Below, in pieces: positions 3,501-41,978 of a DNA stretch of 47,833 bases. The notes under the pieces are model-generated. The model had not been told where the DNA came from, did no database searches, and saw nothing but the letters and a program-made list of their open reading frames with translations. Numbering within the stretch: the stretch's first letter is position 1; each line of letters begins with the position of its first letter. The translations under genes and the position numbers were made by a program. The stretch is from a virus. The stretch lies in the IMG/VR virus record IMGVR_UViG_3300010885_022472, positions 1 through 47,833 of that record; one strand, 5' to 3'.

Positions 3501-4454
3501 TTATCCAGTCAGGATTTCCGATGGCAATGAACCCATCATGTATATTTCCTCTTCCATCTTTTCAATCTCTTGTATTGCTTCATCATAAATTCCTTGACCA
3601 TTTAGTGTAACACCACCAGGCATTTGAATACCATTAAATTTTTTAAGATTGGAACCCCACTGACGTTTGATCAGAGCAGTTGCATACTTTTTCAAGAATC
3701 TATCATTCCATACATCTGTAACACCTTCAATTGTTGCAGTTGTATTCGTATAAGTTTGTGCTGTATTACCTATCAGTATTAATTGTGTTGGTGACTTAAT
3801 AGTACCTACTTGTTTTTGTTCCGTTCCAATTGTAATAAAATCAAAATCAACAAGTTCTTGATCAAATATTGTACCAGTACCGGTAACAGTATTGGAACCT
3901 GGAGCACATGATATAGTACCCGTCAATTTAATTGTTTCTGGTTCCAATGCACGATAACATTCAATGATAACGTAATTTCCTGGTTGAACATCACGTGTCC
4001 AATCAATATCTAAAAATACTTTATTTTGATGACGATTAAAACGGAACTGTGGAGTACCAGAAAACAATAAATTTAATGTACGTAAATGTTGCATGGTAAT
4101 TTCATATGACACATACGATACTGATGTAAAGTCATATAAATCATGCAGACGTAATTGATAACGCAAGTCAAACATATTAATTGATGCATTGGATAAATCA
4201 AATGGCATAACACCCGTAACAAATTGCACAGCATCAGGACAATAAATCCACTGCCGATTAATATCTTCAGCAGTAATGCAGTGTTTCATAAACAATTTTT
4301 CAGTGCCATCGTAATGATAGTCACTCCAAAAAGAAAGTGCTTCATCAATACGATCACTTACTTGATCATCATCAACGTTGATTTCGATCACAGGAAAACC
4401 TAACTTACGTAAGCAATAGTCTTTGAATTGTGTTCTTGTTTTTGGGTGTGCCAT
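3501..4454 (-). CDS. 13: Neck protein gp13
   Basis: gp13 is the second head-neck protein, needed before tails can join filled heads. It has 317 residues (T4: 309). The N-terminus (KTRTQFKDYCLRKLGFPVIEINV, read in two parts; DRIDEALSFWSDYHYDGTEK) is the classic family signature, and the C-terminal helices with YATALIKRQWGSNLKKF and DEAIQEIEKMEEEIY also match. Residues about 176-243 are an extra beta module with the pattern GTGTIFDQEL followed by a hydrophobic strand, which is also present in the large gp7-like protein. It lies 6 nt after the glycine-rich adhesin gene. The order 13-14-15-16 is T4-like. Confidence 0.92.
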   Translation of the reverse strand: MAHPKTRTQFKDYCLRKLGFPVIEINVDDDQVSDRIDEALSFWSDYHYDGTEKLFMKHCITAEDINRQWIYCPDAVQFVTGVMPFDLSNASINMFDLRYQLRLHDLYDFTSVSYVSYEITMQHLRTLNLLFSGTPQFRFNRHQNKVFLDIDWTRDVQPGNYVIIECYRALEPETIKLTGTISCAPGSNTVTGTGTIFDQELVDFDFITIGTEQKQVGTIKSPTQLILIGNTAQTYTNTTATIEGVTDVWNDRFLKKYATALIKRQWGSNLKKFNGIQMPGGVTLNGQGIYDEAIQEIEKMEEEIYMMGSLPSEILTG

Positions 4455-4460
4455 TATTGA

Positions 4461-6062
4461 TTACCAGTAAATACTTCCTGAACCCGTAAATTTATAAATT
4501 TTATATCCACCAGCATTATTAAACTCGGGACTTCCAGAAGTTGTAGCATCTCTAAGTGAATTACCGTAACGTAAAATTAAAACTCCACTTCCACCACCAC
4601 CAGCATTACCGCCACCGCCACCGCCAGAACCAGAACGTCCAGAACCATCTCCAGGTACTCTTGCACCATCACTATCTCGATATACATTACCACTATTATT
4701 ACCAGCACCGCCGCCGCCGCGTCCACCTGTACCATTTTGAGAGTTACCGTAATCACTACCACCGCCACCGCCACCAGCATACCATACGGTAGATGTGGTT
4801 ATAGCCGATGATGTACCACTTCCGCCATCACCACCCCAAGTGCTTTGTCCTGCAGGTGCTGGCTCTAACTGTGAGTCTCCCCCCGCAGCACCGCCACCTG
4901 CAGCACCGCCACCGCCGCCACCACCACCACCACGCTGAGGTTCGTTAAATCCAGGAGTGGGTGTAACGCCGCCATTACCACCACCATTGCCTTGTCCAGG
5001 TGTTCCATTTCCTCCAGGTGGTCTTTGACCTGAACCTACAGAAGGATAAGGTCTGGATCCACCACCTCCACCAGAACCACCATCTCTACCTGCGGTTCTT
5101 TCATTACCGCCACCGCCTCCACCAATATACCATCCAAAAATAACACCACCATTTTGCTGATTGTACATAGCAGTGTTGCCACCAGGATCACCGCTCCCAC
5201 CTACAGTAATTACATAACTTGATGGACTTGCAGAAACCCCAACACCACCCGAAGTTCCAAATCCACCAGCACCGCCACCTCCACGACCACCAGCACCATT
5301 TCCACCACCACCAACTGCCAAAGTTTCAACTGATGATGGTGGGGTTTCTCTAGATGTATCATTAATTGTTATCTGGGGACTTTCTCCTACAATAACACCT
5401 GATGCACTTCCAACTCTTAAATAGATAGTAAAAGTTTGAGCGCCTTCGGTCGTAGTATCGGCGGTTGTAGATATTGAAAATGAACCCGAATTACTTGTTA
5501 TGGTAAACGATCCACTAGAAGCACTAAAATCCGCAGCAGCAGTGGTTTGATTATTAATAGTCCAATATAAAGTATTTCCACTTGGAACACCTTCACCACC
5601 AGTTACGACATTATATGTTGTCGTAACACCTTCATTTATAGATGTTGATGGTGAACTGAATGAATACGATCTATCACCTATATTAACACTAGCACTGGTT
5701 GCTCTAACTGGTCCTGATATTGAAGTAGTTCTTATTGATACGGTAAATGTCTCTGTTCCTTCAGTAAACGCATCATTTGCTGCTTGAACGGTAAAAGAAC
5801 CTGTACCTCCCGAAATCGTAAAAGAACCTGATACCGCAACAAAATCCGAATCTGATGAAGTAATATGATTAATTGTCCAGTATAAAGTTGTACTATTAGG
5901 TACTAATGTTGTTCTAACATTAAATGTTCCTGCTGGACTACCTTCATTCAATTGAGTTGGAATCGTATCAAAGTTATAAGATGGTACTGCACCACCAGTC
6001 TTTACACGCAATCCAAAAGAAGTTAAACTTGATGCTCCAAATGTAGATCCAAAAGTTGGCAT
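4461..6062 (-). CDS. Glycine-rich adhesin with two Calx-beta-like domains
   Basis: The 533-residue protein is a probable virion adhesin. After a short N-terminal stretch it has two immunoglobulin-like Calx-beta-type repeats (about residues 30-130 and 132-235), each with an NEG turn, a TLYWTINH/NQT strand and a late TEG(T/A)xTFT strand. Residues 247-500 are extremely rich in glycine with long Gly runs, followed by SGVLILRYG (492-500) and a C-terminal GGYKIYKFTGSGSIYW. This Gly-rich core with a final VLILRY strand and FTGSG end is typical of phage glycine-rich tip or adhesin proteins, compared in general terms with the polyglycine sandwich of S16 gp38. It takes the place of wac next to gp13 and starts 1 nt after the decapeptide fibre gene. 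Its receptor is unknown. Confidence 0.75.
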   Translation of the reverse strand: MPTFGSTFGASSLTSFGLRVKTGGAVPSYNFDTIPTQLNEGSPAGTFNVRTTLVPNSTTLYWTINHITSSDSDFVAVSGSFTISGGTGSFTVQAANDAFTEGTETFTVSIRTTSISGPVRATSASVNIGDRSYSFSSPSTSINEGVTTTYNVVTGGEGVPSGNTLYWTINNQTTAAADFSASSGSFTITSNSGSFSISTTADTTTEGAQTFTIYLRVGSASGVIVGESPQITINDTSRETPPSSVETLAVGGGGNGAGGRGGGGAGGFGTSGGVGVSASPSSYVITVGGSGDPGGNTAMYNQQNGGVIFGWYIGGGGGGNERTAGRDGGSGGGGGSRPYPSVGSGQRPPGGNGTPGQGNGGGNGGVTPTPGFNEPQRGGGGGGGGGAAGGGAAGGDSQLEPAPAGQSTWGGDGGSGTSSAITTSTVWYAGGGGGGSDYGNSQNGTGGRGGGGAGNNSGNVYRDSDGARVPGDGSGRSGSGGGGGGNAGGGGSGVLILRYGNSLRDATTSGSPEFNNAGGYKIYKFTGSGSIYW

Positions 6063-6063
6063 A

Positions 6064-8001
6064 TTACGCTCCTACTCCAAAAGCAGTGTTACTTGCTAAA
6101 ACAATATAAGATGATGCAGTTTCTTTGATAGCAATAATGCTATAAGAATCAATAAAAGAATTAGGTGGGCTAACATTATAAGACGGTTTTGTATTTCCAC
6201 CCCATTTAACAGTTTGTGCTACTCCATCAATTTGAACAGTTTGAATTACATACTGAGTTCCACCAACTGGTATTAATACTGCAATAGATGAAGATTGCCC
6301 AATATCTAAAACTGTACCTAATGCTGCGGTAGAATTTCCTCTTAGATTTACAGTAACATTCGACACAACATTACCTTGATAGTAATGAATGGCTGAGTCT
6401 AAAACATTAACTGTAATTGTTCCAGTTGCTGCAACTGTTGAGGTATTAATTGTCTCAATAATTCTAGAAGTATTAATTGAAACATTAGAAACAATATTAT
6501 TTGAACTAACCGATTTTAATCCTAAATCATTACCTAAAATTGCAAGATCAACGATGTTATTAGAATTAATAACAGCAGTTCCAAGTAAGTTACCTGTGAT
6601 TTGTCCTGCAACAATGTTATTACCGCGAATTGAATTATCAGTAATATTATTACCAGACACTGAACCAAGACCTAAATTGTTACCAGAGACTGAATTGAGA
6701 CCTAGATCATTACCTAAAATCGAGCCATCTACAATATTATTTGAACTGATAATATTTGGTGCTAATAGATTGCCAGTGATCGTACCAGCAACAATGTTAT
6801 TACCACGAATTGAATTGATGCTGATGTTATTACCAGATACCGAATTGATTCCTAAGTTGTTACCAGATACCGAATTGATTCCTAAGTTGTTACCAGAAAC
6901 AGCAAGATCGCCAATATCTACTGCTATGACAGTTCCATTAGCAATGTGATTTGATGTGATTGCACCGTCAGCAATCAAGTTACCAGTAATTGTTCCTAGA
7001 ACAATAGTATTGGAAGCATTGATAGAGTTGATGCTGATGTTATTACCAGAGACTGAATTGAGACCAAATAAATTACCTGTGATTTGTCCTGCAACAATGT
7101 TATTACCGCGAATTGAATTATCAGTAATATTATTACCAGACACTGAACCAAGACCTAAATTGTTGCCTGATACTGAGTTAAGACCTAAATCATTACCTAA
7201 AATTGCAAGATCAACGATGTTATTAGAATTAATAACAGCAGTTCCAAGTAAGTTACCTGTGATTTGACCCGCAACAATGTTATTAGCACGAATTGAATTA
7301 TCAGTAATATTGTTACCAGACACTGAACCAAGACCTAAATTGTTACCAGAGACTGAATTGAGACCTAGATCATTACCTAAAATTGCAAGATCAACGATGT
7401 TATTGGAATTGATAATGGATGTTGCTAACAGATTACCAGTAATCGAATTTACAGCAATATCTACTGATGTTATAGTTCCATTTGCAATTTGATTCGATGT
7501 AATAGCACTATCAGCAATCAAGTTACCAGTGATTGTACCTGCAACAATACTGTTAGATGCATTGATAGAATTAATGCTGATGTTATTACCTGATACAGCA
7601 CCCGAATCTAATTTTGGTCCTGTAACCGAACCATCAGCAATGTCTACTGCTATGACAGTTCCATTGGCGATGTGATTTGATGTGATTGCACCGTCAGCAA
7701 TTAAGTTACCAGTAATTGTACCAGCAACAATGTTATTACCACGAATTGAATTGATGCTGATGTTATTACCAGATACGGCGCCCGAATCTAACTTTGGCCC
7801 CGTAATTGTGCCGTCAGCAATATCTGATGCTACAACTGTTCCAGCAGCAATGTGATTTGATGTAATAGCACCATCAGCAATCAAATTACCTGTAATCGTA
7901 CCCTGAACAATATTATTACCACGAACAGAATCAGCGGCTAATTTTAATCCAATCACCGCAGTATTTGCAATTCTGTTCGATCCTATTCTTTGTGTGGCCA
8001 T
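6064..8001 (-). CDS. Decapeptide-repeat tail fibre
   Basis: The 645-residue protein is built almost entirely of 10-residue repeats from about residue 15 to 505, roughly 49 copies of the form (S/T/R)GNNIxxNSI, including variants TGNLIADGAI and TGPKLDSGAV. Such repeats occur in phage fibres, where they are expected to form a trimeric beta-helical shaft. The last 134 residues (from about 512) form a non-repetitive head, TINTS..., NVTVNLRGNS, IIAIKETASSYIVLASN, clearly related to the end of the protein at 24742-25740. A perfect late-promoter octamer lies 51 nt upstream, and a purine-rich site AAGGAAAA precedes the start. Probably a fibre or whisker; which T4 part it replaces cannot be decided. 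Confidence 0.8.
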   Translation of the reverse strand: MATQRIGSNRIANTAVIGLKLAADSVRGNNIVQGTITGNLIADGAITSNHIAAGTVVASDIADGTITGPKLDSGAVSGNNISINSIRGNNIVAGTITGNLIADGAITSNHIANGTVIAVDIADGSVTGPKLDSGAVSGNNISINSINASNSIVAGTITGNLIADSAITSNQIANGTITSVDIAVNSITGNLLATSIINSNNIVDLAILGNDLGLNSVSGNNLGLGSVSGNNITDNSIRANNIVAGQITGNLLGTAVINSNNIVDLAILGNDLGLNSVSGNNLGLGSVSGNNITDNSIRGNNIVAGQITGNLFGLNSVSGNNISINSINASNTIVLGTITGNLIADGAITSNHIANGTVIAVDIGDLAVSGNNLGINSVSGNNLGINSVSGNNISINSIRGNNIVAGTITGNLLAPNIISSNNIVDGSILGNDLGLNSVSGNNLGLGSVSGNNITDNSIRGNNIVAGQITGNLLGTAVINSNNIVDLAILGNDLGLKSVSSNNIVSNVSINTSRIIETINTSTVAATGTITVNVLDSAIHYYQGNVVSNVTVNLRGNSTAALGTVLDIGQSSSIAVLIPVGGTQYVIQTVQIDGVAQTVKWGGNTKPSYNVSPPNSFIDSYSIIAIKETASSYIVLASNTAFGVGA

Positions 8002-8071: not shown

Positions 8072-9829
8072 TTACCTTCTAGTAATACGTGGGTATGTCG
8101 AACTTGTTCTTGTTCTAAAACCATAATTTGATTTTGGGTAAACATACCCCGTTCGAACCAACTGATAAAGTGCATTTCCTCTTGGTGTTCCCAATCCTGT
8201 ACATGCATCCCATCCAGTATTTGCACCATATCCAACACCATAAAGAACAACATTATTTCCTGATGTTATATCTCTAAAAACATGAGTATTGATATAAAGC
8301 ATGGGGTTCATAAAACCCATTCGTTTTCCAGATAACTGATTTAACCGTGCGACCAAACCAGCCCATAATGGCGAAACCGCACTGGTACCACCTGCTTGTA
8401 TTCCAGAATTATCTCTCCCATAATAAAATGTATATCCTGTTGAGCCATCAGCATTACCAGCAACATCAGGGACACCTCGCACATTAATATTATTAGCACT
8501 AGAAGTCGTGGAACTTATTCCTGCTGAGTTTAGTGTTTGAAGAGCACCTGTTACATTTATCCTCCAATTTCGTATTCTACGTCCTTGCTGATAGGTAGGA
8601 GTTCCCCATAGTTTACTTTTACCACCACCAGATCCAGATCCATCATGATTCCAAACAACTTCAGTTTTAGTTACATTGTTTGCATGTAACAACAAACTTG
8701 TTCCACCACAACCCAAAACATATGGACTCGAAGCAATCATAGAAACTGTGTTGGCATATGCTACACCATAATCATATGGAATTGATCCATAGTCTCCAGA
8801 TGAGTTAGTAATAGTTATTCCTAATACTGCTGCCGATGCCAAAACATCATTTATTCCTGCAAGATATGAAGAGTAAAATATCAACCATCCATCTTCAATA
8901 TATCCCCAACTAACAGAAATAACACTAGGTGCATTGACTGTATCGTAAAGTGCGGCATTAAAAACATCAGCCAAAAATGCATTATTGTTTGGACCAAAAT
9001 ATATAACTTGTTTTGCTTTTGGAACTACTACTCCAACTACAAAACTATCTAGCATGACTTCAGCAGATGAACCAATATCATCTGGATTATTGGTAGCACC
9101 TTGCACATATACATCACTGATATCAGGAATTGTAAATCCTTGATTCGTAAAACTGCTAGTCAAATTATCTTGTGTATAACCACCACCAAATTGTAAAATT
9201 GCAACTGTTTGTCCGTAACCATCTGAATTTGGAAAATTATACGCTTGTGCAACTTGTTTTGGAGTCAATGGTACTGAACCTGCAATCGCTGCTGCTGGAC
9301 GCATTTCTGCAGGTATATTTCCATTTTCATCTAATTGATAACCAGTAAGCATAGGTCGTAATGCACCCTCAAAATAATTATCTTGTCCAGAAATCTGTAA
9401 GATAATATCTTTTAATTCGGCGGGTATGCTTAATTGACCAGAATGACTTCTATATGTTTTTTCACTATTAGTTATTTCATTTAGCGTTGTATCAAATGCA
9501 TTATTGAAAGAACCTATTGTTCCTGTCAATGTTATTGTCGCAGCATCAGCATGACTCTTATCTACGGTAAAATTATAATGTTCCGCAAATTCACAAACTA
9601 AAGCAATATCTTCATCTGATGAAGAAAATCGTTTGCTAAATTCATCTCTTGATAATGGACTTGCAGTTCCATTTAAAATTTGATCGGCATAATCAGAAAC
9701 GGATTCGGGTCGTCTAATAAAAAGTTTTATTGTAATTTCTTGATTGACATCAGATGCAATCATTGATTGAACATCATCTGTTATTACACCAGAACTATCT
9801 TCTAACGTAACTATTGTTGAGAAATCCAT
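8072..9829 (-). CDS. S53 (sedolisin/kumamolisin-type) peptidase with propeptide
   Basis: The 585-residue protein is a complete sedolisin, a serine-carboxyl endopeptidase. Residues about 30-150 match the pro-kumamolisin activation domain (LSRDEFSKRFSSSDEDI, then GTIGSFNNAFDTTL, ending IPAELKDIILQISGQDNY). The catalytic domain starts near 188 (LTPKQVAQAYNFP). The catalytic residues are all present: E257 and D261 in AEVMLD, oxyanion-hole D346 in SSGDYGS, and nucleophile S483 in GGTSAVSP. The calcium site is visible as D520-I521 and GWDACTGLG (539-547). No signal peptide is seen. The last 25 residues are basic. It lies 1 nt after the 992-residue fibre gene, so the two are cotranscribed. The enzyme family is certain; a role in the virion (receptor or envelope proteolysis, or fibre maturation) is inference. 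Confidence 0.95.
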   Translation of the reverse strand: MDFSTIVTLEDSSGVITDDVQSMIASDVNQEITIKLFIRRPESVSDYADQILNGTASPLSRDEFSKRFSSSDEDIALVCEFAEHYNFTVDKSHADAATITLTGTIGSFNNAFDTTLNEITNSEKTYRSHSGQLSIPAELKDIILQISGQDNYFEGALRPMLTGYQLDENGNIPAEMRPAAAIAGSVPLTPKQVAQAYNFPNSDGYGQTVAILQFGGGYTQDNLTSSFTNQGFTIPDISDVYVQGATNNPDDIGSSAEVMLDSFVVGVVVPKAKQVIYFGPNNNAFLADVFNAALYDTVNAPSVISVSWGYIEDGWLIFYSSYLAGINDVLASAAVLGITITNSSGDYGSIPYDYGVAYANTVSMIASSPYVLGCGGTSLLLHANNVTKTEVVWNHDGSGSGGGKSKLWGTPTYQQGRRIRNWRINVTGALQTLNSAGISSTTSSANNINVRGVPDVAGNADGSTGYTFYYGRDNSGIQAGGTSAVSPLWAGLVARLNQLSGKRMGFMNPMLYINTHVFRDITSGNNVVLYGVGYGANTGWDACTGLGTPRGNALYQLVRTGYVYPKSNYGFRTRTSSTYPRITRR

Positions 9830-9830
9830 A

Positions 9831-12809
9831 TTAGACTTCCAATGGTAGATATGTTAAAGTAACTGTAACTGTATTTGTTCCATTACTATTATTATAAATT
9901 TTTAAATATCCATTTGAGTTTACAGATACATCATCATTCATACCATATACTGCAGGTGTAAAGTATGTTACATTAGCAGCAAATCCTGTGGTAATTGATT
10001 CAGCAATAACACCACTTCCTGGATTCGGATCAGTTGTAATACTACGTGTCCAATCTGCATTTGCCAATGCAGTGTTGCTATACAAAGTAACCCATGCACC
10101 AGTGGATACTGCTATCTTATACAGAACATATCCTTTTGCCATAGTTACTATTGCATTTGCTGAAGCATTTACAGCAAGACTTGCAGTAGTAGTTGTTATT
10201 GTAGTTCTAGTAAAGCCAACCAAACTGTTTGCTTTATTGAATGCCGCATTTGCTTGAATAAATGATGCGTTTGCTTGATTACGAACGAAGGTATCAGTAG
10301 CATTATTTGCAGCATTAAATGCGGCATTTGCTTGATTACGAGCCCACAGATCAGTAGCATTATTTGCTGCATCAAATGCTGCATTTGCTTGATTGAATGC
10401 TGAGTTACCAGTATTGAATGCCGCATTTGCTTGATTACGAACAAAGGTATCAGTGGCATTATTTGCTGCATTAAATGCGGCATTTGCAGTAATGAATGCA
10501 GCATTCGCATACTGACCAGTTGCATTCTGTGATTGATAAGCAGAGTTTGCAACAATAAATGCTGCATTTGCTTGTCCACGAACCCACGTGTCTAGTGCAT
10601 TATTAGCAGCAGAGAATGCAGCATTGGCGGTATTGTATATATTATTTGCATATGGAAGTATATCAATATTCTTAATTGTTATAGTTGTTGAATGTAGATT
10701 TGCATTCAGTGTATCAATCTGAAATGTTGGATCATCAATAAGAATATTATTATTGGCTGTTATTTGTGGTACGTAACCTTTGAATAGATGCCATTCTTTT
10801 GTTCCTGCATCACGAATCAAACCAGTATGTGCATTCACACCATCGTTATAATGACCAACAAATCCAATATCAATTAAATCTGTGGTATAGTTATTAAGTG
10901 CAAACACGTACAGCGGTGAAGTGCTTGTTGTACTTCCAGCATTGATAGAATATGTGTTACCAATAACTGTTAAGTTACCCGAAACAACTAAATCTTGAGA
11001 TACTGTAAGATTACCAGATACTACACCACCATTATTTGCATCCAACGAGTTATTAGCACGAATGAATGCTGCATTTGCTTGATTGAATGCTGAGTTACCA
11101 GTATTGAATGCCGCATTTGCTTGATTACGAACGAAGGTATCAGTAGCATTATTTGCAGCATTAAATGCAGCATTTGCGGTGTTCCGTGCAGAATTTGCTT
11201 GGATAAACGATGCAGTTATACTATTGTTTTGTGTTGTATCTATACCAGCAATAGAATTACCTAAAACAAAAGCAGCATTAGCCGTATTCAGTGCAACGGT
11301 GATAGAATTGTTTTGCGTTATATCAACGCCGTTGATTAAATTGGCAGAAGCAAAAGCCGCATTAGCAGTTGTTTCGGAATATGCAATTCTATTATTCTGC
11401 AACAAATCAACGCCGTTGATTAAATTGGCAGAAGCAAAAGCCGCATTAGCAGTTGTTTCCGAATATGCAATCCTATTATTTTGCGTTATATTAACACCGT
11501 TGATTGCATTAGCAGATGCAAAAGCAGAATTAGAAATGTTACGTGCAACAATATCAATAGCATTAGTCGTAGCAACACTATACGCAATATTTGCTGTTAG
11601 ATAAGCAGAACCAGCAAGATCAGAGGAAGAGTTAGCAGTAGTAAAGGCAGCATTAACACGATTACGTGCATATTGATCCGTTGCTGCCGCAGAAGCAGAG
11701 TTGGCAGCATCAAAAGCAGCATTAGTACGATTTTGTGTATCAACAAATCTTGAAGAAAGATTACCATCAAGTTTTATAAAACTAACAGAACTATCGTTTA
11801 TAACATACGCATTCGTTGATGAGTAAAAAGATGTAACATGAACTATATCATCTTCAGCAGGAGCATCATCTAAGAATGTAATTGTTTTAGTGACTGTATT
11901 GACTGTGTATGCGCTAGTAGGTTGTAAAACTCCACCAATAGATACCACTAATGAAGCAACACTTCCAGGATTAAATCCTAAAGAAAATGTTGTTGTTTCA
12001 CCATCTCCGGTTGTTTCAAAAAGTGACGGAGTTACAAGGGTAGGTAATGCTTGATAATAACTTATATTAGCATTACTATAAAAAGAAGCAACACGAACTA
12101 ATTCATCATTCTGAGGAATTTCACTAAAGGTAATAGTATTATCGGATGTATCAACTGTATATGTACTGATAGGTTGTATAATACCAGAAATTGATACCAT
12201 CACTGCTTCTCTTGAAATAGGATTAAATCCTAAAGAAAATGTTGGTACTGTACCATTTGATGTTGTTTCAAATACGACTGGTGCCAATGTAGTGACAGTA
12301 TTTGCTTGAGCAAGAGCAGCATTAGCAGTATTCAGAGCAACAGTGATGGAGTTGTTCTGTGTTAAATTAACTGCTACTGCACCATTAGCAGCAGTAAATG
12401 CTGCATTTGCATGATTGCGAACATACGTATCTGTCGCATTATTAGCGGCATTGAATGCGGCATTAGCAGTAGAGAATGCCCTATTAGAAAAATCATAGAT
12501 GTCAATGCCATCGTCACTAAAAAGATTTGCACGAACATTTCCACTAACAGTCAATTGACCTGTGGTTTTATTGAAAGTTAATTTTTCACTAGAACCAACA
12601 GAACCAGCATCATTGAATTGTATCTCTGTATCTAAACCCGATGGGCCAGTAGAGAATGATGTTACTACTCCTGTGGGCGTTGAATAGAAAAGAACTCCAT
12701 CTCTTGAGTTAATGGCAATTTCACCATTAGCCAAAGAAGATGGTGTATTTCCAGCAACAGTAGAGTGCCTAATCTGAAGCAATGTATTTGGAGAAGATAT
12801 AGTTGACAT
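9831..12809 (-). CDS. ANAAF-repeat long tail fibre, paralogue 1
   Basis: The 992-residue protein is a probable tail fibre. Residues 1-60 resemble the N-termini of the two paralogues at 13390-16164 and 16259-19147 (LLQIRHS..., SLANGEIAINS), probably the virion-attachment part. Two copies of a 70-residue beta module follow (178-246 and 262-331; FETT, TFSLGFNP, SIxGxxQP, YTV, ITF). The shaft consists of ANAAFxx heptads mixed with QNNSI and NNATDTFVRNQ segments. Another beta insert lies around 600-720. The last 120 residues (from about 870) form a distinct domain with GYVLYKIAVSTGAWVTLYS and an end in TLTYLPLEV, a known phage-fibre tip type, likely receptor-binding. Unlike its paralogues it does not end in GGTF. 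Confidence 0.8.
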   Translation of the reverse strand: MSTISSPNTLLQIRHSTVAGNTPSSLANGEIAINSRDGVLFYSTPTGVVTSFSTGPSGLDTEIQFNDAGSVGSSEKLTFNKTTGQLTVSGNVRANLFSDDGIDIYDFSNRAFSTANAAFNAANNATDTYVRNHANAAFTAANGAVAVNLTQNNSITVALNTANAALAQANTVTTLAPVVFETTSNGTVPTFSLGFNPISREAVMVSISGIIQPISTYTVDTSDNTITFSEIPQNDELVRVASFYSNANISYYQALPTLVTPSLFETTGDGETTTFSLGFNPGSVASLVVSIGGVLQPTSAYTVNTVTKTITFLDDAPAEDDIVHVTSFYSSTNAYVINDSSVSFIKLDGNLSSRFVDTQNRTNAAFDAANSASAAATDQYARNRVNAAFTTANSSSDLAGSAYLTANIAYSVATTNAIDIVARNISNSAFASANAINGVNITQNNRIAYSETTANAAFASANLINGVDLLQNNRIAYSETTANAAFASANLINGVDITQNNSITVALNTANAAFVLGNSIAGIDTTQNNSITASFIQANSARNTANAAFNAANNATDTFVRNQANAAFNTGNSAFNQANAAFIRANNSLDANNGGVVSGNLTVSQDLVVSGNLTVIGNTYSINAGSTTSTSPLYVFALNNYTTDLIDIGFVGHYNDGVNAHTGLIRDAGTKEWHLFKGYVPQITANNNILIDDPTFQIDTLNANLHSTTITIKNIDILPYANNIYNTANAAFSAANNALDTWVRGQANAAFIVANSAYQSQNATGQYANAAFITANAAFNAANNATDTFVRNQANAAFNTGNSAFNQANAAFDAANNATDLWARNQANAAFNAANNATDTFVRNQANASFIQANAAFNKANSLVGFTRTTITTTTASLAVNASANAIVTMAKGYVLYKIAVSTGAWVTLYSNTALANADWTRSITTDPNPGSGVIAESITTGFAANVTYFTPAVYGMNDDVSVNSNGYLKIYNNSNGTNTVTVTLTYLPLEV
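11322..11489 (-). repeat. 84-bp tandem repeat inside fibre gene
   Basis: Two adjacent 84-bp units (11322-11405 and 11406-11489) are nearly identical over their first 60 bases and diverge in the last 10. Each encodes 28 residues of the shaft around NLINGVD and ENNRIAYSETTANAAF-like text. It points to growth of the shaft by in-frame tandem duplication. Confidence 0.8.
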
Positions 12810-41024: not shown

Positions 41025-41978
41025 TTAGTCTCCAATGAACACTGTGCCAGAACCAGTCTCAATTACATTAGTTCCTGCCGAGTTCACATCTTTTTCACTT
41101 CCAGTGCCCTGATCACCAGTATCAGCAGTGTCACCAATACGAGCAGCACCCATCGTTCCTTTATTAATGTTGACGGTTTTACCGTTTATTCTAATATCAC
41201 CTGTAACATTCAAATCATAGTCACCATCAACATACATTTTTACCGAACCTTGAACATACACCGAATCAGTTCCAACTACTACGGTAAATTTATTGCGTTG
41301 TATTCTTTCTGAACGATCACCTAGTGGACCATACTCAACATACGAACCTGAACGATGATATAGATGAATTCGTTCAGCACCTTTAGTATCATCAAACTCT
41401 AATGCGTGTCCTGATTCAGATTCATATACATTATTATATGGGTACTTAGCAGCATAGTATGAATCTGGTTCTACCTTGCTTGCCTTTTTTGTTTTCTTTG
41501 CTGCATTAATTGCTGATGGGTAGTCAGAATCATTTCTTGCTAAACGTGATGTAGTTGGTTCATCCAACTTTCGTGGATAATTTGTAGCAGACTCATCAGG
41601 CTTTACAGGTGCTGCCGCAAGTTCAGTAGATGTTCTTGGATCACAAAAACCTTGTTGAGGATTTCCAGCAGACAAAGGAATACCAGGAAGTGTACCTATA
41701 ATAATTGGATCTTGTCCATTATAACCATCAGAAAAAAAACCCACTACCATATCAGACTGTCTTGGTGGATATGGATTAGCATTATTTGTTGGCAGCATCA
41801 CTTGTGCCCACGGTAATGAATCCGTAGGTAGCAACGATTTATTATCTGTATGCCAACCGACACAACGTACACGACACCTACCTAGTTTCAATGGATCATT
41901 GATTGCTTCAACAACACCAACGAACCAAGTGAATCCATTTTTACCAGCAAAGTCTTTATTATCTTCAGTATGATCCAT
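41025..41978 (-). CDS. 5: Baseplate hub/spike protein gp5 without lysozyme domain
   Basis: gp5 makes the membrane-piercing spike base below the hub. The 317-residue protein (T4: 575) has the N-terminal OB-fold (about 12-105; TWFVGVVEAINDPLKLGRCR, WAQVMLPTNN, VVGFFSDGYNGQDPIIIGTL) and a short C-terminal beta-helix (about 190-280; HALEFDDTKGAERIHLYHRS, SVKMYVDGDYDLNVTGDIRI). The T4 lysozyme domain between them is absent; instead there is a 70-residue polar linker. The end has no HxH iron motif. It overlaps the gp27-like gene by 14 nt. Confidence 0.9.
   Translation of the reverse strand: MDHTEDNKDFAGKNGFTWFVGVVEAINDPLKLGRCRVRCVGWHTDNKSLLPTDSLPWAQVMLPTNNANPYPPRQSDMVVGFFSDGYNGQDPIIIGTLPGIPLSAGNPQQGFCDPRTSTELAAAPVKPDESATNYPRKLDEPTTSRLARNDSDYPSAINAAKKTKKASKVEPDSYYAAKYPYNNVYESESGHALEFDDTKGAERIHLYHRSGSYVEYGPLGDRSERIQRNKFTVVVGTDSVYVQGSVKMYVDGDYDLNVTGDIRINGKTVNINKGTMGAARIGDTADTGDQGTGSEKDVNSAGTNVIETGSGTVFIGD

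Follow-up and report, generated by a model that had tools for sequence, protein, structure and literature searches.

Some T4-like phages probably carry a protease on a tail fiber, perhaps clearing proteins from the host surface

A complete sedolisin protease encoded directly behind a tail fiber gene of a T4-like phage that infects aquatic bacteria is part of a module in which one fiber domain is followed by a protease of either of two families, S53 or S8, with a common C-terminal tail. These T4-like phages probably carry a protease on a fiber, and this protease perhaps clears proteins from the host surface. In specific terms, we consider it rather probable that the sedolisin is an exchangeable protease, docked by its tail on the fiber domain, carried on the virion, and cutting a host-surface protein. 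The enzymes of phage tails are mostly known for cutting polysaccharide or peptidoglycan. According to a preliminary description of this DNA, no virion-associated sedolisin is known to have been described, and the open-license papers searched likewise contained no account of phage sedolisins or fiber-tip proteases; the module as a whole (one fiber domain, either of two protease families, a common tail) also appears to be undescribed in the open-license literature searched.

An intact sedolisin in the adhesin cassette

The DNA analyzed here (the window, 47,833 nucleotides) is a 47.8-kb IMG/VR contig. On its minus strand, positions 8072..9829 (ATG at 9829, stop codon at 8072-8074) encode a 585-amino acid S53 sedolisin of the kumamolisin type. 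The preliminary description had given the same coordinates while remaining silent on the strand, and the S53 hallmarks it listed (propeptide, E257/D261, D346, S483, and calcium site) were all confirmed, the four residues exactly where it had placed them. The Pro-kumamolisin activation domain (Pfam PF09286), which scores 59.1 bits where 23.5 is the cut-off (E = 7.7e-16), spans residues 29-151 (9377..9745, minus), and the catalytic domain spans residues 187-557 (8159..9271, minus). The Glu/Asp/Ser catalytic set is present as E257 (9059-9061), D261 (9047-9049), and S483 (8381-8383), together with the oxyanion Asp, D346 (8792-8794), and sequence alignment places the calcium site at D520 and D541.

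The phmmer match in the PDB is pro-kumamolisin (1t1e; E = 2.6e-89 over 500 residues, 57-557), and the likeness to kumamolisin and its precursor (MEROPS S53; 1t1e, 1gt9, and 1sio) extends over the propeptide, the catalytic residues, and the DIT..GWD calcium-site stretch. The predicted structure, built from 8 sequences, is a weak model (pLDDT 52), with 1t1e as its best Foldseek match (E = 1.3e-30). At an E-value threshold of 0.01, the S8 profile PF00082 did not match the protein, which has the Glu-Asp-Ser set instead. Taken alone, the window enzyme is an ordinary member of the S53 family; it differs from kumamolisin in having no signal peptide, in its phage C-terminal tail, in its location behind a tail fiber gene, and in the replacement of Glu32 by Gln213. 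The last difference affects the Glu32-Trp129 extension to the catalytic Glu, which is not universal in S53: the Trp is kept (W308), and Ser takes the place of Glu32 in the relatives from contigs L001, L003, and L004. In line with the preliminary description, inspection of the N-terminus (MDFSTIVTLEDSSGVITDD) gave no evident signal peptide. Kumamolisins are acid enzymes, so the activity of the window sedolisin at lake pH is uncertain. A head-maturation protease of the T4 gp21 type was ruled out, given that the protein matches S53 only and its gene sits among fiber genes. A tblastn search of 50,697 phage records with the window sedolisin gave zero matches, meaning that the S53 form was not detected among those deposited phages, and no PHROGs family matched it.

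As the preliminary description had it, the gene lies 1 nt downstream of a long fiber gene, inside the adhesin cassette of a T4-like phage. The upstream fiber (992 amino acids with ANAAFNAANN repeats; 9831..12809, minus) has its stop codon 1 nt before the sedolisin ATG, and the GGAAG within its last codons (CTACCATTGGAAGTCTAATATG; 9834..9850, minus) could serve the protease gene as a ribosome-binding site. The C-terminal 126 residues of this fiber (9834..10211, minus) form a domain, hereafter the platform, that matches phrog_15343 and phrog_9627, families of unknown function. Downstream of the sedolisin are a 645-amino acid fiber with SGNNLGLNS-type repeats (6064..8001, minus; phrog_892 tail fiber, E = 4.8e-33), which occupies the same position in L001, then a Gly-rich fiber or adhesin with a Calx-beta domain (4461..6062, minus), and finally the neck/head-tail adaptor gene that bounds the cassette (3501..4454, minus; identified by tblastn to annotated neck proteins). 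The T4-like assignment is borne out by a gp14-type neck protein (E = 3e-30), gp15 (E = 8e-64), and a baseplate wedge protein best matching Methylophilales phage Melnitz and Pelagibacter phage HTVC008M (37-41%). A search of 16 records with PF07068 (gp23) gave no match, as was also the case for the controls, and is therefore uninformative. In the Melnitz paper, 'subtilisin' is the name of the sheath domain.

The gp5 protein (41025-41978) contains Gp5_OB only and no lysozyme domain, as previously observed; nothing was found to favor the accompanying suggestion that the sedolisin compensates for the lost lysozyme, a protease being no replacement for a muramidase. A ferritin-like (Dps-type) protein (766-1200; PF00210, E = 3.7e-22) is encoded beside the neck genes and is found in L001 too, there adjoining the terminase.

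One fiber domain, two protease families, and a common tail

We examined 81 viral loci that encode the platform, namely the best 80 of at least 598 matches in a scan of viral contigs, and one from a second scan. Among these best-matching loci, a protease is encoded directly downstream of the platform in 75 of 81, 56 of these proteases being S8 subtilases and 19 being S53 sedolisins; ranking by platform similarity favors close relatives, so that the protease fraction is not an unbiased frequency. The two genes are separated by exactly +1 nt in 59 of the 75 linked loci, and cores resembling ribosome-binding sites precede 50 of the 75 proteases, against 26% in shuffled sequence. The 1-nt spacing, together with such a core in the last fiber codons, suggests coupled translation.

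Among deposited phage records, 48 carry the platform, and cyanophages account for nearly all of them. In S-H9-1 and S-H38, the gene after the platform starts 1 nt later or with a one-base overlap, and its annotation reads subtilisin-like protease; the corresponding genes of ACG-2014j, S-CAM1, and S-MbCM7 are named hypothetical or fiber. Pfam Peptidase_S8 matches this gene in all five phages and in S-CREM1, and tblastn places S8 coordinates just behind the platform in additional records, for example S-RSM4, S-WAM2, S-CAM4, and ACG-2014e/i. The cyanophage proteases (for example, those of S-H38, S-CREM1, and S-RSM4, and T4-GC_292 of S-MbCM7) thus resemble the window sedolisin in their position directly behind the same fiber domain, although they belong to another peptidase family, are labeled peptidase or hypothetical, and have no role stated in the records and papers examined. 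Sullivan 2010, for instance, mentions an S8 peptidase in P-HM1 and P-HM2 and gives no role (PMC3037559).

Six of the 81 platform loci (L244, L245, L247, L251, L307, and L293) have no identified downstream protease, and the downstream reading frame of L293 starts like the S8 protease of L276 before the contig ends. The protein that follows the platform in S-SCSM1 and Sf-CH1b has no Pfam protease match, and in S-CRES2 it is a short hypothetical protein. Leaving L293 aside, these exceptions imply that linkage of the platform is not confined to proteases.

Prediction from window and viral contig sequences yields an all-beta sandwich for the platform (pLDDT 94.8). Its close matches in BFVD are only cyanophage fibers that carry the same domain, sequence comparison with solved structures found no relatives, and Foldseek matches in the PDB are weak (best 4e-4, TM 0.43). 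VIA-align Z scores reach 7.7 at most, with 7.2 for the jelly-roll of the Thermococcus subtilase Tk-SP; such values are common, and we therefore claim no relation.

The two protease families share a C-terminal tail of the type YPKxNYxxRPxxGxxYPR. In the window sedolisin, it comprises residues 563-585 (VYPKSNYGFRTRTSSTYPRITRR; 8075..8143, minus), which we propose to be a docking peptide; other linked S53 proteins end alike (e.g., TYPKQNYGFRPSTGLAYPRKTTGAR), as do many linked S8 proteins (e.g., TFPKINYKPRPTTGAVYPRLRIRRT), including that of S-H38, some S8 proteins having a further domain beyond the motif. By pattern, a YPR-type ending occurs in all 21 distinct linked S53 proteins and 36 of the 41 distinct S8 proteins, compared with none of 75 cellular S53 proteins and 31 of 1624 other viral reading frames. 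A hidden Markov model built from the S53 tails alone matches S8 C-termini with E-values down to 2e-8, whereas the best-scoring background protein stands at 0.032. S8 and S53 belong to one fold clan; the tail, however, lies outside the S8/S53 fold and is missing from cellular S53, and so belongs to the module. Both the exchange of the two families on one fiber domain and the shared tail had escaped the preliminary description.

The linkage of sedolisin and fiber is conserved. Sedolisins with roughly 50% identity to that of the window occur in contigs L001, L003, and L004, each behind the same fiber domain, so that the window gene is not an assembly join, a concern voiced in the preliminary description along with a possible lack of fiber linkage in relatives. 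L001 preserves the full order fiber, sedolisin, fiber, Gly-rich protein, and neck, and in more distant contigs (L005, L006-L008, L010, and L092-L095) the sedolisin directly follows a fiber with alike last ~126 residues; across the syntenic contigs, 1-4 nt separate the end of the fiber domain from the sedolisin start. Searching by the neck gene brought in 80 loci, with neck identities to the window of up to 94%; neither a sedolisin nor such a fiber domain was found in them, and those with a visible cassette have other adhesins in place of the module, which accordingly is cargo of a variable cassette.

Some sedolisins are covalently joined to fiber parts. In L011 (1327 amino acids) and L098 (1430 amino acids), the protease is fused to repeats and to a C-terminal domain, the latter also found at the end of separate fiber-like proteins of very large size (L009, 12593-19297; in part, L005, 908-3811), and in L096 the protease is joined to other repeats. 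These fusion proteins have no YPR-type tail, and a search of the gene preceding them found no platform domain; it looks as if tail plus platform, or covalent fusion, are two routes to the same end.

All 26 distinct phage S53 proteins checked retain the four catalytic residues (E/D/D/S), and all 45 S8 proteins checked retain the triad and oxyanion Asn, except that Glu stands in for Asp in one subfamily. In phylogenetic trees, the platform-linked sedolisins group with the fusions in a single clade (27 rows, 100% SH-aLRT), separate from cellular enzymes and from other sedolisins of phage contigs. The first tree placed this clade beside Proteobacterial S53 (96% SH-aLRT), a placement not resolved in the second, which had fewer cellular rows. 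Nested inside the clade are the linked S53 proteins of L243, L260, L272, and L302, which have just 408-425 amino acids and no propeptide, and whose C-terminus carries the tail or a variant form.

Proposed role and alternatives

Several steps can be envisaged for the action of the module. The fiber, ending in the conserved beta-sandwich platform, and the protease, translated next from the neighboring gene in zymogen form, would meet in the cytoplasm, as the protease has no signal peptide. The tail (YPKxNYGxR..YPR) would then bind the platform, with the result that the particle bears the enzyme on its exterior. The propeptide may hold the enzyme inactive until release and be removed once it is outside the cell or docked. 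At the cell surface, the protease would cut a host protein, such as an S-layer, pilus, outer-membrane, or matrix protein, allowing the phage to reach its receptor or leave debris. Collagen-like fibers were set aside as a substrate, the window fiber not being collagen-like.

The working principle would be that of tailspike polysaccharide depolymerases, tail enzymes that open a path through the host surface layer, but applied to protein rather than polysaccharide. The module differs from them in being a protease, not a glycan lyase or hydrolase, and in usually being a separate gene product that apparently docks by its C-terminal tail, not a trimeric beta-helix spike. Both arrangements expected of a virion-borne tail enzyme, a gene adjoining fiber genes or a fusion to fiber parts, occur among the sedolisins.

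Indirect evidence from virions comes from an S8 relative in S-SCSM1. Mass spectrometry identified 45 virion proteins in S-SCSM1 (PMC9602691) and 14 in S-CREM1 (PMC9964418). Both S-SCSM1 records carry the flag '(virion protein)', which presumably denotes mass-spectrometric detection, on the platform fiber, on the protein after it, and on ORF228 (1411 amino acids), an S8 protease with two laminin-G domains. ORF228 resembles the module as a protease in an adhesin-type protein, but is fused to lectin-like domains and is not encoded directly behind the platform fiber. Taken with the conserved fiber linkage and the fusions, this deposited S8 relative favors a virion-borne rather than a secreted sedolisin, as the preliminary description had proposed.

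It is unlikely that the sedolisin is instead a free enzyme, made late, freed at lysis, and digesting receptors or debris without being part of the particle. The missing signal peptide, the acid-activated zymogens typical of the S53 family, and the many phage contigs whose sedolisins lack a propeptide and sit in diverse settings, at times close to lysis-type genes, fit such an enzyme, but the tail common to S8 proteases, the adjacency to one fiber domain, the fusions, and the S-SCSM1 virion protein do not. We regard it as quite improbable that the enzyme cuts the fiber or another virion protein during assembly, fiber maturation having been raised in the preliminary description. Proteases do serve in phage head maturation, and the fiber and protease genes lie next to each other, with possible translational coupling; the prohead protease, however, belongs to an unrelated family, near relatives of the window make fibers without such a protease, and one cleavage site common to S53 and S8 is not expected. 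That the same fiber domain is kept with S8, with S53, or with neither weakens this reading further.

A protease fold that mainly binds a peptide or protein, with catalysis unimportant, would be in keeping with the coupling of S8 to lectin-like domains in S-SCSM1, but is very improbable given that the catalytic residues are kept in 71 of 71 proteins checked from two families. We give practically no credence to a chance host gene or assembly join without phage function: cellular S53 genes are common and the closest relatives of the window by neck gene have no sedolisin, yet the same arrangement recurs in many independent contigs and the proteins form one phage clade.

A tentative extension of the fiber-docked reading, plausible to us although we would not count on it, is that aquatic T4-like phages share a fiber-tip socket (the jelly-roll-like domain) and a C-terminal plug, by which proteases of two families, and possibly tip proteins of other kinds, are swapped, surface proteolysis being a common unrecognized entry step in marine and freshwater environments. 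If such a widespread class exists, many aquatic phages would cut cell-surface protein, and protein layers would be a barrier or a receptor; the phrog_15343 and phrog_9627 fiber families and the cyanophage S8 'peptidases' would gain a role, and the socket and plug, if real, would offer a ready means of attaching enzymes to phage fibers.

Variation in the cassette and among phage proteases

The cassette of adhesins that lies upstream of the neck gene (window 4461-25740; L014 and L017-L020) is hypervariable, and phages whose neck proteins are 92-94% identical have differing fiber sets. L307 (4398-5942) and L092 (7366-12319) encode the same fiber domain and the same following gene of ~205 amino acids, with a sedolisin in L092 and not in L307, a natural presence/absence pair.

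A second set of sedolisins, separate in the tree from the fiber-linked clade, occurs on phage-like contigs (L100, L103, L105-L107, L110, L111, L115, L117, L118, L124, L127, L129, L130, L133, and L135-L137). Its members are diverse, mostly 340-470 amino acids long, without propeptides or evident signal peptides, and found in varied contexts. The sedolisin of L009 (9992-12571) has an insertion of ~200 residues that separates the calcium-site DVISGNN from GWDAATG, and then an Ig-like repeat.

Among the S8 proteases, the subfamily with the Asp to Glu replacement has GTSCATP around the serine (L227, 6353-8605; also L262, L276, L283, L306, L311, and L312). Three fiber-linked cyanophage S8 proteins (L224, 6329-8374; L225, 6350-8353; L228, 6350-9271) have a C-terminal plastocyanin-like domain with a His...Cys..His...Met pattern resembling a copper site and, in two of them, a weak match to Pfam Copper-bind. 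In L228, an esterase-like region with a weak AXE1 match lies between the protease and this cupredoxin-like domain.
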